Below, piece after piece: positions 43,042-50,834 of a stretch of DNA of 64,000 nucleotides. The stretch comes from Halobellus sp. MBLA0158. Lineage in GTDB: Archaea; Halobacteriota; Halobacteria; Halobacteriales; Haloferacaceae. The translations under genes were made by a program, and so were the position numbers. The DNA lies in NCBI RefSeq assembly GCF_041477585.1, contig NZ_JBGNYA010000001.1, positions 1-64,000 on the forward strand, written 5' to 3'. A model generated the notes under the pieces. It was not told where the DNA came from, made no database searches, and saw only the letters and a program-made list of their open reading frames with translations. Every line of letters begins with the position of its first letter. Position 1 is the first letter of the stretch.

Positions 43042-44307
43042 CTATCGCTCGTTGACGTCGAGGACCTTCCCGGCCGCGATGGTCTGACCCATGTCGCGGA
43101 CCGCGAAGGACCCGAGCTCCGGAATCTCGCCCGACGGCTCGATGCTGAGCGGCTTCTGCGGTCGGACCGTGACGACCGCGGCGTCGCCGGACTGGATGAA
43201 GTCGGGGTTCTCCTCGGCGACCTCGCCCGAGGAGGGGTCGAGCTTCTGATCGATGGACTCGATCGTACAGGCGACCTGCGCCGTGTGGGCGTGGAAGACC
43301 GGCGTGTAGCCGGCGGTGATGACCGAGGGGTGCTGCATCACGACGATCTGGGCCTGGAACGTCTCGGCGACCGTCGGCGGGTCGTCGGCGGGGCCGCAGA
43401 CGTCGCCGCGGCGGATGTCGTCCTTGCCGATGCCGCGGACGTTGAACCCGACGTTGTCACCGGGGCCGGCCTGCGGCACTTCCTCGTGGTGCATCTCGAC
43501 GGTCTTGACCTCGCCGCCGACGTCCGACGGCTGGAAGGAGACGTTGTCGCCGGGGCTGATGGTACCGGTCTCGACGCGTCCGACCGGGACCGTCCCGATG
43601 CCCGAGATGGTGTAGACGTCCTGAATCGGCAGGCGGAGCGGCGCGTCCGTCGGCGGCTCCGGCTCCGGGAGGTCGTTGAGCGACTCCAGGAGCGTCGGGC
43701 CGTCGTACCAGGACGTGTTCTCGGACCGCTCGGCGACGTTGTCGCCCTCGAAGGCCGAGATCGGGACGTAGGTGGCGTCGTCGGAGTTGAACTGGACCTG
43801 CTTGAGGAGCTTGTTGACCTCGTCTTTGACCTGCTTGTAGGAGTCCTCGCTGTAGTCGACGAGGTCCATCTTGTTGATGCCGATGATGAGCTCGTTGATG
43901 CCCAGGGTGCGGGCCAGGAAGACGTGCTCGCGGGTCTGCGGCGCGACGCCGTCGTCGGCGGCGACGACGAGCACCGCGTTGTCGGCCTGCGAGGCGCCCG
44001 TGATCATATTCTTGACGAAGTCACGGTGGCCCGGACAGTCGACGATGGTGAAGTAGTACTCGTCGGTGTCGAACTCCTGGTGGGCGATGTCGATGGTGAC
44101 CCCGCGCTCGCGCTCCTCGGCGAGGTTGTCCATCACATAGGCGAACTCGAATCCGCCCTTGCCCTTCTCTTCGGCTTCCTCGCGGTGCTGCTCGATTACG
44201 TGCTCGGGGACGGATCCTGTCTCGAACAGGAGTCGCCCGACCAGCGTACTCTTTCCGTGGTCGACGTGGCCGATGATGGCCAGGTTCTGGTGCGGTTTGT
44301 CACTCAT
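43042..44307 (-). CDS. tuf: Elongation factor 1-alpha
   Basis: GTPase that delivers aminoacyl-tRNA to the ribosome. 421 residues with G1 GHVDHGKST (14-22), switch [10 protein letters not shown]3 DCPGH, G4 NKMD and domain II-III motifs ([27 protein letters not shown]). ATG at 44307. Upstream, on the minus strand, GGTTTTAGGGC about 50 bases away may be the promoter. The stop abuts rpsJ. Confidence 0.98.
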
Positions 44308-44613
44308 AGGTGGGTCACGCGCTAAGGCGCTCTGTACCGCCTTCTTTGGCCAGAAAGCCCTAAAACCATTTCGATACGTAGACGGCCGAAACGCCGCAGT
44401 ATCGCGGTTTGTGGGACCATCTACCACGGGTCGCTGCCGCACTTTTCGACCGGATCGACGCGGAACCGAGTCACCGAAGCGCCGGCAGCGACGCGCGGCG
44501 AGCGCGAAAGCGGCCGAAAGGAGCGAAAACGAGCCGATCGCAGGACTGCGGAGGGACCGTGTCGGTATCAGGTAAGATCGACGACGCGATTCCAGCGGCG
44601 GCGGTGCCGCAGG
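44308..44613. other. 306-base gap between tuf and hom: no gene seen
   Basis: GC-rich sequence with the tuf promoter region near 44355-44370 (AT-rich on the minus strand) and scattered A-runs further right. I found no convincing reading frame, tRNA or hairpin. The part beside hom is probably its 3' region. Confidence 0.6.
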
Positions 44614-45576
44614 CTATCGGTCTTCCAGCCGACCGACGTCGCCCAGCACGGCCGAGGCGGTCTCCGGGCCGCCGGCGCCGCGGCCGCTGAGGTTCAGTTG
44701 GCCGGCGTGGTCGGTCTCCAACTGGACGATGTTCCGCGTCCCGGTCACGGCGAGGGCGGCGTTCTGCGGGACGAGCCGCGGCCCGACGCGGATGCCGTCC
44801 CGGGTCGCCTCCCCGACGAGCCGGATCGTCCGGCCGTCCTCGGCGGCCAACTCCAGGGCGCTGCCGGGGACGTTCGTGATCCCCTCGACGTCGGCGTCGT
44901 CGAGGGTGTACTCCGTCTCGCCCTCGGCGAGCACGTTCGCGAGGATGACGCACTTCAGCGCCGCGTCCGTGCCCTCGACGTCGAAGGTCGGGTCCGCCTC
45001 GGCGACGCCGAGGTCCTGGGCCTCCGCGAGGACGTGTTCGTAGTCGATCCCCTCGGCGGCCATCCGCGAGAGGATGAAGTTCGCCGTCCCGTTGAGGACG
45101 CCCCGGGCCGCCTCGACGTGCGACGGCGAGAGGTCCTCGACCGTCGAGACGATCGGGATCGCGCCGCCGACGGTGGCCTCGAAGCGGACGTTCCCGGCGC
45201 TCTCGCGCTCTAAGTCCCGGACGTCGCCGTAGCGCTCGGCGACCGGCCCCTTGTTCGCGAGGACGACGTGGCGGTCGCGCTCCAGCGCCGTGCGAAGGTG
45301 CGAGAAGCCGGGCTCGGCGTCGCCGAGCGTCGTCGGCGTCGCCTCGACGAGGACGTCGTAGTCGGCCTCCAGCGCCGCCTCGGGGTCGGCGTCGCCGACG
45401 CGGCCCTCATCGGACTTCCGGTCTAAGGCCGCCTCGGTGTCGATGCCCCCGGCGTCGACGGCGGCCGACGACGAGTCCGCGAAGGCGACGATCCGGTGGC
45501 CGTAGTCGGCCGCGAGGTCGACGACTGAGCCGCCGACCGCGCCGGCGCCGACGACCGCGAGTCGCTTGCCGCTCAT
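44614..45576 (-). CDS. hom: Homoserine dehydrogenase
   Basis: NAD(P)-dependent enzyme reducing aspartate semialdehyde to homoserine, for threonine and methionine. 320 residues. N-terminal Rossmann motif GAGAVGGS at 10-17, then EATPTTLGD, ANKGPVAERYG (catalytic-site Lys) and the substrate region GGAIPIVSTV, GVLNGTANFILSRM. It has no C-terminal ACT domain; the ACT function lies in the separate upstream gene, which overlaps it by four bases. Confidence 0.95.
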   Translation of the reverse strand: MSGKRLAVVGAGAVGGSVVDLAADYGHRIVAFADSSSAAVDAGGIDTEAALDRKSDEGRVGDADPEAALEADYDVLVEATPTTLGDAEPGFSHLRTALERDRHVVLANKGPVAERYGDVRDLERESAGNVRFEATVGGAIPIVSTVEDLSPSHVEAARGVLNGTANFILSRMAAEGIDYEHVLAEAQDLGVAEADPTFDVEGTDAALKCVILANVLAEGETEYTLDDADVEGITNVPGSALELAAEDGRTIRLVGEATRDGIRVGPRLVPQNAALAVTGTRNIVQLETDHAGQLNLSGRGAGGPETASAVLGDVGRLEDR

Positions 45577-46205
45577 ACGGCTCCCCCCGCGAGGGGTTCG
45601 ACCACGTGGAGGTCCTTCTCCTCGGCGATCTCGCGGACGAGCGAGATCGCTTCGGCGGTCTCGCCGGCGCGGGTCGCCATCCGGAGCCGGGCGCTGGAGG
45701 TGTCGCTGCGCCCCTCCGGCGCGTTGAGCGAGAAGTCCGCGATCGACGTCGAGGGGTACTGTTCGATCCGACGGAGCGTATCGGAGAGGTCCGTGTCGAC
45801 GAGGTGGCCCACGAGGACGACGACGACCTCCTCGGCGTAGTGTTCGGCGCCCGCCTGGACGACGTTGACGCCCTCGTCGCGCAGCGCGGCGACGATGGCC
45901 TCGAAGCGGTCCGGGGTCGCCTCGACGTCGACCTCCACGGGGATGCGGCCACGCGGGGTGACGTTCCCCCGCTCGTGGAAGATCGACAGGAGGTTCCCGC
46001 CGTTCGCTGAGATGGGTTCCAGCGCCGCGAGCAGTTGCCCCGGCTGGTCGGCGAGTTCGAGCCGGATCGTGTGGGGCTGGGGCTCGCCGTCGGCGTCGGT
46101 GTCGGCGGCGTCGGCGTGGGACGTACGCGAGCGGGTCGCGCCGCCGGAATCGCCGGAGTCCGGTTCCTCGTCGGCGTCCGCGTCGGAATCGAGCGCGGAC
46201 GTCAC
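45573..46205 (-). CDS. ACT-domain regulatory protein upstream of hom
   Basis: 210 residues. A disordered acidic N-terminal tail of about 45, then two tandem ACT-like domains: HTIRLELADQPGQLLAAL with NGGNLLSIFHERGN in the first, and the VVVVLVGHLVDTDLSDTL block in the second. It starts with GTG, the first possible start in its frame because a TGA lies eleven codons upstream. Overlap with hom (four bases) suggests it binds amino acids such as Thr or Met to control homoserine dehydrogenase, as ACT domains do when fused to the enzyme in other organisms. Confidence 0.85.
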   Translation of the reverse strand: MTSALDSDADADEEPDSGDSGGATRSRTSHADAADTDADGEPQPHTIRLELADQPGQLLAALEPISANGGNLLSIFHERGNVTPRGRIPVEVDVEATPDRFEAIVAALRDEGVNVVQAGAEHYAEEVVVVLVGHLVDTDLSDTLRRIEQYPSTSIADFSLNAPEGRSDTSSARLRMATRAGETAEAISLVREIAEEKDLHVVEPLAGGAV

Positions 46206-46321
46206 TGGCGGATCACTCCCTGGCGGGAGGGGGCCTCACGAGCCACGGTTCGGTGAGAGACGACGACTCGACGGTCCGTCCGGGCGACGGGTCGAGGTCG
46301 TGAGGTCGAAGCCGTACACAT
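46202..46321 (-). CDS. Putative 39-residue leaderless upstream ORF of the ACT-hom operon
   Basis: ATG at 46321 lies 25-30 bases after a good TATA box, exactly where a leaderless transcript should start. It runs 39 codons (MCTASTSRPRPVARTDRR...) and ends GVIRQ with a TGA that overlaps the GTG of the ACT gene (GTGA), so ribosomes could pass directly to it. It holds nine Arg and four Thr residues, unusual for the acidic haloarchaeal proteome, so it could be a regulatory leader peptide for threonine/methionine synthesis. It may instead be a chance frame. Confidence 0.5.
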   Translation of the reverse strand: MCTASTSRPRPVARTDRRVVVSHRTVAREAPSRQGVIRQ

Positions 46322-46345
46322 ACCCGAACGTCAACCCCCGGACCG

Positions 46346-46351
46346 ATATAA
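46346..46351 (-). promoter_or_regulatory. TATA box for the ACT-hom operon
   Basis: Minus strand TTATAT inside CTTATATCGG, 25-30 bases before the 46321 ATG. It is about 140 bases before the ACT gene itself, so the transcript has a long leader containing the short reading frame. Confidence 0.65.
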
Positions 46352-46409
46352 GCCTTCGTCGATGCACGCGTTGCCGGCGGCGAAAACTGCCGGCGTCCCG
46401 CCCGGCGCG

Positions 46410-47534
46410 CTAGATGCGCGGCAGCGAGATCGTCACCGTGGTCGCGTCGTCGTGTTCGGTGAACGAGATCTCGCCGCCGTGGGTGTCGGCGACGGTCTTT
46501 GCGACCCACAGCCCCAGTCCGCTCCCGTGGGTCAGCTGTGTGATGTCGGCCTCGCCGACGACGACGTCCCGCTCGTGGGACGGAATGCCGTCGCCCCGGT
46601 CGGAGACCGAGAGCTCGACCGCGTCGGGGAGGACCCGGACCGACGCCTCGACCGGCGGGTCGCCGTGCTCGGCGGCGTTCTCCAGGAGCTCGTCCAGGGC
46701 CGTCCGGAGGCCGTCGCTCGCGCGGACCCGCGCGTCGATGTCGTCGGGCGCGTCCACCGAGAACGCCGCGTCGGGGAACCGATCCCGCGCGTGTGCGACC
46801 GCGCCCTCGAGTACCGCGACCGGGTCGGTCTCGCGGTACTCCTCGGGGCTCCGGTCCCGCTCGCGGGTGATCGTCTTCGCGCCGTCGGCGAGGCTCCCGA
46901 CCGTCTCGGCGCTGCGTTTCAGCACGTCCGCGGACTTCTTGAGCCGCTCCTCGCTCGGGACGGTCGCGACGATGTCGGCGTGGCCCGCCAGCACCTGCGC
47001 CTCGTTGCGGAGGTTGTGCCGCAGGACGCGGTTCAGCACGGCCGTCCGGCGGCGCTCCCGGGCGAGCTGTTCGGCGCGCACCCGGCGGGCGTCGTAGACG
47101 CCGATGATGACGTGGGCCGCCGCGCCGATTGCCAGGAGGTTGCCGACGGTGAACATCGACGGCGCGATCCCGCCCGACAGTCGGTTCTGGGCGTACGCGT
47201 GCGCGAGCATCACGCTCCCGAGGACGACGATTCCCAGGAGGTTCCAGATCGCGATCCGGAGCGCGTTGCGGTCGCTGAAGCCGCTGTAATACAGCAGGCC
47301 GCCGACGGCGACGAGGCCGAGCGAGACGACGCCCCCGACCGCGCCGAGTACGACCGACAGCGGGCCGCCGCCCGAAAGCAGCGGAAAGAGGTTCGGTACG
47401 AGCAAGACGAGACCGGTGGCCGAGATGATGGCGCTCGCGAGGAGCCGGACGGCGGAGGGCCTCGCAGGAGCGACAGACTCCGGCGGCGAGCCGAACCCGA
47501 CCCGATCGAGGAGCGTGAGGAGTTGTGTGCGCAT
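46410..47534 (-). CDS. Membrane sensor histidine kinase
   Basis: 374 residues. About four hydrophobic helices in residues 28-148 form the membrane sensor. The H-box is NRVLRHNLRNEAQVL with H173 as the likely phosphorylation site, followed by ELLENAAEHG (N box), SDRGDGIPSHE (G1) and HGSGLGLWVAKTV (G2). It lacks PAS or receiver domains. No response regulator gene is beside it, so it belongs to the orphan kinases common in haloarchaea. Signal unknown. Between the ACT gene and fusA on the same strand with its own AT-rich promoter near 47566-47574. Confidence 0.92.
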   Translation of the reverse strand: MRTQLLTLLDRVGFGSPPESVAPARPSAVRLLASAIISATGLVLLVPNLFPLLSGGGPLSVVLGAVGGVVSLGLVAVGGLLYYSGFSDRNALRIAIWNLLGIVVLGSVMLAHAYAQNRLSGGIAPSMFTVGNLLAIGAAAHVIIGVYDARRVRAEQLARERRRTAVLNRVLRHNLRNEAQVLAGHADIVATVPSEERLKKSADVLKRSAETVGSLADGAKTITRERDRSPEEYRETDPVAVLEGAVAHARDRFPDAAFSVDAPDDIDARVRASDGLRTALDELLENAAEHGDPPVEASVRVLPDAVELSVSDRGDGIPSHERDVVVGEADITQLTHGSGLGLWVAKTVADTHGGEISFTEHDDATTVTISLPRI

Positions 47535-47676
47535 CTGCTGTTGGCTACTGGTCGGACACCCGCTTGAAATTATGGGGCCGAGTATCGGTGTCGATAGCGG
47601 ACGGGAAAAACGGAACCGCGTCGAACCGCGGGCCGACGGCGCGCGTGACGCGCGGGGTCACGCGGGCGTCAGATCG

Positions 47677-49866
47677 TCAGAACTGGTCGACCGACTGCGG
47701 GAGTTCGAGCTTCATTCCCTTGCGCTCGCGGATCTCCATGATCTTCTCGCGCTGGAGGTTGTCCGAGAGCACGCGGAAGCCGGCGTTCTCGGTGTTCCAC
47801 GAGGCGCGGCCCTCCGTCGCCGAGCGGATGTCCGAGGAGAACCCGATCATCTCTTCGACGGGCGCGATGCCCTCGATGACCATCAGGTCGCCCTCCTGGA
47901 ACATGTCGTCGACGCGGCCGCGACGGCCCTGGATCTCGCCGGACGCCGAGCCCATGTGCTCGGAGGGAACGTCGATGCGGACGTTCTGGATCGGCTCTAA
48001 GAGCTTGATGTCGGCGTCGATCAGCGCGCGGTGGACCGCGTCGCGGACGGCCGGGATGACCTGTGCGGGACCGCGGTGGATCGTGTCCTCGTGGAGCTTC
48101 GCGTCGTGGAGCCGGAGCAGCGCGCCCTGGACCGGCTCGTTGGCGAGCGGGCCGTCGTCGAGCGCCTCTTCGAGGCCCTCGATCACGAGCTCCATCGTCT
48201 CGTTGAGGTGCTGGATCCCCTTCGTGTCGTCGATGAGGATGTTCGTCCCGTGGATGTGCTCGACGTTCTGGGAGGTGTCCTTGTCCATCCCGGCCTCCTG
48301 CAGCGCCTCGCGGCGCTCCAGTTCGGGCATATCCATCGAGGCCTCGCCGAGCTTGATCGCGTCGACGACGTCCTCCGGGAGGGGCTCGACCGTGATGTAG
48401 AACTTGTTGTGGCGGTTCGGCGAGACGCCCTCGACCTCGCGGGAGGCGTCCTGCGGCGACTCGCGGTAGACGACGATCGGTTCGCCGGTCTGGACCGGGA
48501 TGCCCTGGTTCTTTTGGATGCGCTGGGTGATCACTTCGAGGTGGAGCTCGCCCTGGCCGCTGATCAGGTGCTCGCCGGTGTCCTCGTTGATCTCCACCCG
48601 GATGGTCGGGTCCTCCTTGGCGACCTGCTGGAGCGTCTCGATGAGCTTCGGCAGGTCGTCCATATTCTTCGCCTCCACGCTTTTCGTGATGACCGGCTCG
48701 GAGATGTGCTCGATCGACTCGAACGGCGTCATCTCCACCGACGAGACGGTGGAGCCGGCGATGGCGTCACGCAGGCCCGTGACGGCCGCGATGTTCCCCG
48801 CGGGGACGCCGCGGTCGAGCTCCTCGCGCTCGCCGCCCATAAAGATCCCCACGGACTGGACACGGTTCTTGCCCGCCGTCCCGGAGACGTACAGCTCCTG
48901 GCCCTGCTTGATGGTCCCGCTGAACAGCCGGCCGGTCGCGATCTCGCCGGCGTGGGGGTCCATCGAGATGTCGGTCACCATAAAGACGACCTCGCCGTCG
49001 TCGTCGACCTCGCGCATCTGCCGAGCGAGGTCGGTGTCGTCGTCGCCGCGCCAGACGCGCGGGATGCGGCGGGGCTGGGCGTCGAGCGGGTCCGGGAAGT
49101 GCTCGGCGACCATATCGAGGACGACGTCCGAAAGCGGCGTCTTCTCGTGGAGCTCGCGGCGCTGGTCGTTGCGCTCCATCTCGATGATCTCGGGGAAGCC
49201 GATGCCGGTCTCGGCCATCGACGGCGCGGAGACGCCCCACTTGTAGAGGGCCGACCCGAAGGCGACGGTCCCGTCTTCGACGGAAACCGTCCAGTCGTCG
49301 ACGTTGTCCATATCCTCGGTCATCCCGCGGATGAGCTCGTTGACGTCGCCGATGACGTCCATCAGCCGCTCTTGCATCTCCTGGGGCCCCTCCTGGAGCT
49401 CGGAGATGAGGCGGTCGACCTTGTTGATGAACAGCGCGGGCTTGACGCCCTCGCGCAGCGCCTGCCGGACGACCGTCTCGGTCTGCGGCATCGCGCCCTC
49501 GACGGCGTCGACGACGACGAGCGCCCCGTCGACCGCGCGCATCGCGCGGGTCACGTCGCCGCCGAAGTCGACGTGGCCCGGCGTGTCGATGAGGTTGATG
49601 AGGTGGTTTTCGTCCTCGTACTCGTGGGTCATCGACACGTTCGCCGCGTCGATGGTGATCCCGCGTTCCTGTTCGTCCTCCTCTGTGTCCATCATCAGCC
49701 GGGTGGCCTCGCCCTCGTCGGCGATCATTCCCGCCCCCGCGAGGAGGTTGTCCGTCAGCGTGGTCTTCCCGTGGTCGACGTGAGCGGCGATGGCGATGTT
49801 CCGGATCTGCTCCGGTTTGTCCATCAGTTGCTCACACTCTTGTACGATCTTCTTTCGTCGGCCCAT
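47677..49866 (-). CDS. fusA: Elongation factor 2
   Basis: 729-residue translocation GTPase. It begins [18 protein letters not shown], with G1 [10 protein letters not shown], switch [12 protein letters not shown]3 [10 protein letters not shown] and G4 NKVDR. Domains III-V follow. H597 in [10 protein letters not shown] is the expected diphthamide site; the diphthamide loop is intact. The ATG at 49866 is at the normal archaeal position. It is divergent from the DUF5781-like gene and separated from rpsG by it. Confidence 0.97.
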
Positions 49867-50034
49867 TATGTGACCCTGTACCGGCAGGAGGGTCAAAAGG
49901 GTAGTGTTTTGCCGCCCGCGGAATCGCCGGATACGGCGGCCGCTGAGCGGGGTATGCACCCTTTTGACACAGTTCGGCGGTTCCGTTCGGCGACTCGGTC
50001 GAGCGCCCGCGTCCGGGCCGATCCGGAGTAAGAG

Positions 50035-50041
50035 TCTTATC
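50035..50041 (+). promoter_or_regulatory. TATA-like element for the DUF5781-like gene
   Basis: TCTTATC, 26-32 bases before the ATG at 50067. Supports the second of two in-frame starts. Confidence 0.5.
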
Positions 50042-50066
50042 GGGCCACCCCGTGAGAACGATACGC

Positions 50067-50834
50067 ATGGACCTACGAGTGCGCGGCGACGTCCCGGCGG
50101 ACCCGTTCCTCGGCGCGGCGGACCTCCTCGAAACCGAGTGCGACCTCGACCGGCCTGTGTACGTCGACGTCCGGACCGACCCCGACGAGCGGACCTGGGC
50201 GGCCCACTACGAGGACCGCCACGTGCTGAACATCTCCCGGCAGGCGGCGACGAGCGCGATGGCGCGCGAACTCGCCGTCCACGAGCTCGCACATATGGCC
50301 CGCAACGAGGAGGGGCACGTCTCGCATCACCTCCAGACCGAAGAGGCGCTCTTTCTCGCGCTCTCCGGCGAGTCCGTCGAACGCCGGAAGGTCGCCCACT
50401 GCTATCAGATCGCGAACCACATGAAGGACATCTACGCCGACGACATCACGCTCTCGGTGACGCCGCCCGAGAAGCTGGTCTCGTTCCTGGAGTCCGAGCT
50501 GGCGCGGGCGGTCGCGACCCGCGAGTCTCCCTCGCCGTGGCCGGACTCCCGACGGGTGACGGCGGGGTCGGACCCCGAGATCACCGCCGTCAACGCGGCG
50601 TTCGCGCTCGGCCTCGTCGAGCGCCACGGCGTCGTCGACCGCGACCACCGGCTCTACGACCTCGCGCACGCGGCCGCCGACGACGCCCCCGGCATCAACC
50701 TCCAGGCCTTCAAGCGGCGCTTCCGCTCGCTCGGCGAGGACCCCTCCGACAGCGAGTACCGGAAAGCGCTCGTGGACGCGACCCGGGCGTACGCCGTCGG
50801 CGAGCCCGGCGGCGGCGACGTCGCCGCCGACTGA
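50067..50834 (+). CDS. DUF5781-like protein with HExxH motif
   Basis: 255 residues. HELAH within [19 protein letters not shown] is an HExxH zinc-metalloprotease-type motif, with later His residues that could supply a third ligand. No signal peptide or membrane segment. I recall the family as DUF5781 in haloarchaea. The ATG at 50067 ([13 protein letters not shown]) is preferred over one five codons earlier since a TATA-like element sits 26-32 bases upstream. It lies convergent to rpsG, divergent from fusA, inside the str locus. Proteolytic activity is untested inference. Confidence 0.82.

Follow-up and report, generated by a model that had tools for sequence, protein, structure and literature searches.

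In haloarchaea, most genes start without leaders, and Shine-Dalgarno motifs in 5'-UTRs reportedly do not serve to initiate translation anew. The ACT-hom operon holds genes at the start of threonine and methionine synthesis, and in enterobacteria, genes of the homoserine pathway are preceded by the leader peptide of the thr operon, which is rich in Thr and Ile. Two components of the arrangement described here are already known, namely, coupling through overlaps in haloarchaea and attenuation by leaderless short open reading frames (ORFs) in mycobacteria. Translation from ACT to hom has been shown experimentally to be strictly coupled in Haloferax volcanii, where ACT-hom was among the pairs tested and an early stop in ACT abolishes hom translation, and where Shine-Dalgarno motifs function in re-initiation without supporting de novo starts (Huber et al. 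2019, PMC6728339); upstream ORFs (uORFs) are not mentioned in the text of that paper. Separately, a list of H. volcanii uORFs contains frames of 15 to 31 aa in 5'-UTRs of 150 to 250 nt, and neither hom nor any ACT gene is on it (Babski et al. 2016, PMC4983044). In mycobacteria, polycysteine leaderless short ORFs are reported to be cysteine responsive (Canestrari et al. 2020, according to the passages citing it in PMC9031893 and PMC9094748). Literature searches, in which subscription papers mostly fell outside reach, returned no description of an ACT-hom leader.

The locus analyzed here, a mini-ORF preceding the ACT-hom operon of Halobellus sp. MBLA0158, resembles each of these systems in part. 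As in the H. volcanii termination-reinitiation pairs (PMC6728339), there is an NTGA overlap with a Shine-Dalgarno motif inside the upstream frame, and the mini-ORF and ACT gene have the touching stop and start of such gene pairs; those pairs, however, join two ordinary genes, whereas the upstream member of the present pair is a mini-ORF that is leaderless, not conserved, and located at the predicted 5' end of the message. It is also, like the listed H. volcanii uORFs (PMC4983044), a small upstream frame in a haloarchaeal leader. What it shares with the mycobacterial polycysteine ORFs, as far as the citing passages describe them, is a short leaderless frame that lies ahead of the operon genes and is proposed to act through its translation; in those ORFs, however, the cognate codons form runs, and here they are scattered or absent. 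The resemblance to the enterobacterial thr leader (Thr/Ile richness) is confined to the long forms found within the family; unlike that leader, the haloarchaeal one has a leaderless start and a coupling overlap, has no identified terminator/antiterminator pair, and is Thr poor in Halobellus.

Features of the locus in the window (the whole 64,000-nt stretch of DNA that was analyzed) are collected in Table 1, and the positions given by the initial annotation are all correct. A BRE-like CGAAGG precedes the TTATAT box, and the mini-ORF ATG follows about 26 nt downstream on the minus strand; from TATA spacing, we infer that transcription would start at or next to this ATG. The ACT stop and the hom start share an ATGA overlap (45576-45573). 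In a Pfam/NCBIfam search, the hom product matches homoserine dehydrogenase (NF004976) above the cut-off, and residues 45 to 110 of the window ACT protein give a subthreshold match to an ACT domain. Halobellus species are the nearest named relatives. The ACT-hom pair sits between the genes for the elongation factors EF-2 and EF-1A (window 43042-50292), and EF-2 and/or EF-1A falls inside the fetched flank at many haloarchaeal ACT-hom loci. The mini-ORF peptide is MCTASTSRPRPVARTDRRVVVSHRTVAREAPSRQGVIRQ, whose 39 residues include 9 Arg and 4 Thr; its earlier description as Arg/Thr rich therefore stands for Arg and applies only mildly to Thr, which occurs singly at positions 3, 6, 15, and 25, and a run of consecutive cognate codons is absent from this peptide.

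Table 1. Coordinates of the mini-ORF, its promoter, the downstream genes, candidate RNA helices, and the aspartokinase mini-ORF (window positions unless a locus is given)
Feature	Position	Strand	Basis
TATA box TTATAT, predicted leaderless promoter	46346..46351	-	Sequence; TATA spacing in relatives
Leaderless 39-codon mini-ORF (putative coupler uORF), ATG 46321-46319 to TGA 46204-46202	46202..46321	-	Sequence; architecture conserved
GTGA overlap, uORF stop/ACT start (GTG at 46205)	46202..46205	-	Sequence
Shine-Dalgarno-like GGAGTGAT within uORF end, 6 nt 5' of ACT GTG	46212..46219	-	Sequence
ACT-domain protein gene, 210 aa	45573..46205	-	ORF and domain search
hom, homoserine dehydrogenase, 320 aa	44614..45576	-	ORF and domain search
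Candidate hairpin 5' arm CCTCACGA, common to other Halobellus leaders	46298..46305	-	Structure-blind helix scan, pair count
Candidate hairpin 3' arm TCGTGAGG	46234..46241	-	Structure-blind helix scan, pair count; absent from MFE fold of window leader
Possible hairpin CTCCC-GCCA-GGGAG covering Shine-Dalgarno	46216..46229	-	Window locus and L004 only
Leaderless 19-codon aspartokinase mini-ORF, MTTHHSQFQGRAGEDRPCA	L255:1450-1509 (G000:C1, upstream of aspartokinase at 402105)		Sequence

ACT loci were gathered from genomes of the same genus, family, and order, together with named GTDB records. Under a loose definition (an ATG after a TATA-like box, with its frame ending at the ACT start), a mini-ORF is present at 82 of 96 ACT loci, and the strict architecture is present at 71 of the 96. 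A wider, scripted search recovered the mini-ORF at 171 of 204 nonredundant ACT loci in the class Halobacteria; at 18 of the 33 others, the stop abuts the ACT start directly or the start codon is a variant, which brings the total to 189/204 (93%). Several of the last 15 loci show a mini-ORF by eye, and one (L042) seems to be a true exception, with ACT itself apparently near the promoter and no uORF. As background, we applied the strict search to 464 kb of the Halobellus genome (20 stretches plus the window; 362 genes), where five genes match, two of them the genome's own ACT genes, leaving 3 of 360 others. The leaderless, translated-leader geometry coupled to ACT that had been proposed for the window locus is thus borne out and conserved class-wide (189/204 versus 3/360), with the uORF staying open and its stop kept on the ACT start.

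The geometry is tightest at its two ends. In 165 of the 171 loci, the TATA hexamer begins between -33 and -28 relative to the ATG of the uORF. This spacing is fixed even though the uORF itself is anywhere between 9 and 67 codons long in this set and reaches 69 codons in the abutting set (9 to 69 overall). Stop and start overlap by 4 nt in 149 of the 171 loci, by 8 nt in 21, and by 1 nt in 1, and in most of the remaining mini-ORF loci they abut. Ahead of the ACT start, 100 of 102 nonredundant loci show a Shine-Dalgarno motif, defined as a match to GGAGGTGAT of 4 nt or more.

Other copies of this arrangement occur. A second Halobellus ACT gene, not followed by hom (G000:C1:1247797-1248306; L002, L118), carries its own short leaderless mini-ORF, MTRTTGWDADE, and the overlap is ATGAGTGA in many relatives of this second type. 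Some Haloferax species apparently have two ACT-hom operons (L095-L101, L292-L295), the leader of one being a 12-codon MNDTxVRCCxDE and that of the other a 35-codon, Thr-containing form. Leaderless mini-ORFs ending on a start codon also precede a few further genes of the Halobellus genome (L113:6039-7595, L113:7757-8803, L116:18618-19109, and L119:10914-11420), one of which resembles a sodium/solute transporter. A quick scan of this genome found no clear coupled leaderless mini-ORF at threonine synthase and its paralogues, trpC, the HMGL-like and chorismate-binding enzymes, or asd. At aspartokinase, the GTG start lies inside the mini-ORF MTTHHSQFQGRAGEDRPCA, with an overlap of 10 nt; candidates are found at 30 of 30 loci (our own and 29 relatives) under permissive criteria, and by count of this permissive output, 24 of the 30 combine a TATA box at -29/-30 with a real overlap. 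The leaderless mini-ORF design would therefore span two entry steps of the aspartate family.

We consider the mini-ORF to be, most probably, a cis-acting leaderless coupler that feeds termination-reinitiation into ACT and then hom. Transcription would start at or next to the uORF ATG, and a ribosome initiating on the 5'-terminal AUG would translate the mini-ORF, terminate at the TGA overlapping the start of ACT, and re-initiate there, aided by the Shine-Dalgarno motif embedded in the mini-ORF; it would pass from ACT to hom in the same way. Placed ahead of ACT, the leaderless mini-ORF would make ACT the second gene of a coupled chain, and its peptide would be a by-product, uORF translation probably serving to bring ribosomes to the enzyme genes. 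Selection appears to maintain a start placed at the promoter, a frame that is open but free in length between 9 and 69 codons, termination at the ACT start, a Shine-Dalgarno motif, and, for Haloferacaceae, a hairpin in the RNA. This reading is favored by the class-wide architecture, the promoter spacing that stays fixed as uORF length varies, the overlapping or abutting stop and start, the coupling known from H. volcanii, the near-universal Shine-Dalgarno match (100/102), the unconstrained peptide (see below), and the aspartokinase analogue, and from the architecture we infer that the uORF may regulate the operon. Counting against it is L042, whose apparent lack of a uORF suggests that the uORF is not absolutely required, and coupling alone leaves unexplained the long, folded, Thr-rich leaders of Haloferacaceae. 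Attenuation and an RNA element, the two readings considered next, are not exclusive of the coupler and could be layered on it.

The initial annotation suggested that the rate of translation of the peptide could sense charged tRNA. An attenuator sensing Thr (and Ile) in the manner of the bacterial thr leader but with a leaderless start, in which ribosome speed on these codons would alter leader folding and thereby ACT-hom expression, is possible but doubtful. In 80 nonredundant long leaders from Haloferacaceae, compared in frame and in the other two frames, Thr makes up 33% of codons 2 to 7, 13.7% of codons 8 to 27, and 15.4% thereafter, versus 2 to 8% in the other frames, where it stands at 5 to 8% past codon 7; Ile from codon 8 on reaches 3.7%, versus 1.1% in the other frames; and the rare codon ACA accounts for 23% of Thr codons, versus 3.8% in the genome sample. 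These enrichments favor attenuation, as do the position of hom on the route to Thr and Ile and the conserved hairpin of Halorubrum leaders, and since Thr is only 4.8% in the similarly built aspartokinase leaders, Thr richness is no general property of such frames. However, the leaders of Halobellus, the genus of the window, are Thr enriched at codons 2 to 7 only (past codon 7, 6.3% and 3.2%), and codons 2 to 7 are conserved as nucleotides, so that their Thr content may be incidental. Thr codons past codon 7 are retained no better than those for Ala, Pro, Gly, Ser, or Arg, and Ala is as enriched as Thr after codon 27. Thr is missing from 12 of 30 short leaders, and leaders of 9 to 16 codons outside Haloferacaceae often lack it. 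Moreover, plain coupling predicts less hom, not more, upon Thr depletion, and no antiterminator-like switch, alternative fold, or U-run terminator was identified in the leaders. Support for the threonine-sensing proposal is partial and ambiguous. Its fullest version, that the Haloferacaceae leader is a leaderless, translated, folded sensor of charged threonyl/isoleucyl-tRNA that tunes ACT-hom, evolved from the class-wide coupler mini-ORF, has a sister device at aspartokinase, and is the first archaeal amino acid leader-peptide attenuator, is one that we would advance only as a conjecture of low probability.

Rather unlikely is that conservation centers on an RNA element, i.e., a hairpin that binds a ligand or a protein (the ACT protein itself may be the partner) and on which the frame rides along. 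In 43 unique Halorubrum leaders, conservation over the first 27 codons is equal at codon positions 1, 2, and 3 (entropy, 0.49/0.47/0.49), and variability at 4-fold sites is below that in ACT (0.26 versus 0.76 bits), as such an element would have it. For 14 diverse Halorubrum-type leaders, RNAalifold predicts a hairpin of 21 pairs, 3 of them compensated, at -23.9 kcal/mol, and 20 pairs named beforehand are paired in 92% of cells, versus 30 to 48% when slid. A structure-blind scan of Halobellus leaders likewise recovers CCTCACGA/TCGTGAGG as the best of all helices, a score reached by 0 of 60 column shuffles, with pairs in 92% of cells (30 to 53% when slid) and 1 compensated pair; this helix differs from the Halorubrum hairpin. 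Against an RNA element, covariation is not clearly above shuffles in the tests of either hairpin, folding of the window leader by itself does not surpass that of shuffles (z = 0.29), and the leaders of 9 to 16 codons in other families are too short for the hairpin, yet the frame is kept everywhere. The leader also matches no Rfam family, a tRNA being the only hit above the gathering score in the 64-kb window. RNAalifold found no structure in a mixed-genus MAFFT alignment because of indels (the Halorubrum-type-only set worked). A fixed hairpin template fits only some of the genera, and the mean z of 5'-to-3' duplex scores relative to codon shuffles is only -0.6; therefore, we do not claim a single family-wide fold. 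A family-specific leader hairpin is likely in Halorubrum and plausible in Halobellus.

Codon-level (Ka/Ks) conservation of the leader peptide, for which the initial annotation proposed a test, did not emerge. Across 25 close pairs, with the ACT genes of the same pairs as a control, uORF differences at codon positions 1/2/3 are flat (129/125/149) and those in ACT are not (35/10/346), and therefore, there is no sign of purifying selection on the peptide; nor is there an excess of synonymous change in the uORF (208 nonsynonymous versus 84 synonymous codons). We accordingly rejected a conserved peptide. That the mini-ORF encodes a functional microprotein is highly improbable: although the first residues, M-x-T-G-T, are conserved in many genera, its length runs anywhere from 9 to 69 codons, the three codon positions change to similar extents, and 71% of changed codons are nonsynonymous. 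On these comparisons, selection would act on frame and position, the peptide itself not being conserved. Stop codons are scarce in GC-rich DNA, but a chance ORF within an untranslated leader is hardly credible and is refuted by conservation, with 93% of ACT loci against about 1 to 2% of other genes carrying the frame and promoter spacing fixed while length varies.

The presence of a mini-ORF before ACT-hom nearly throughout the class, together with the aspartokinase analogue, points to a route of translational control that would consist of leaderless entry followed by re-initiation, and uORF control in archaea becomes directly testable in Haloferax volcanii. It also carries a caution, in that an unconserved peptide does not make a small ORF junk. 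In Haloferacaceae, the coupler may have grown into a folded, Thr-rich leader that could sense amino acid supply.
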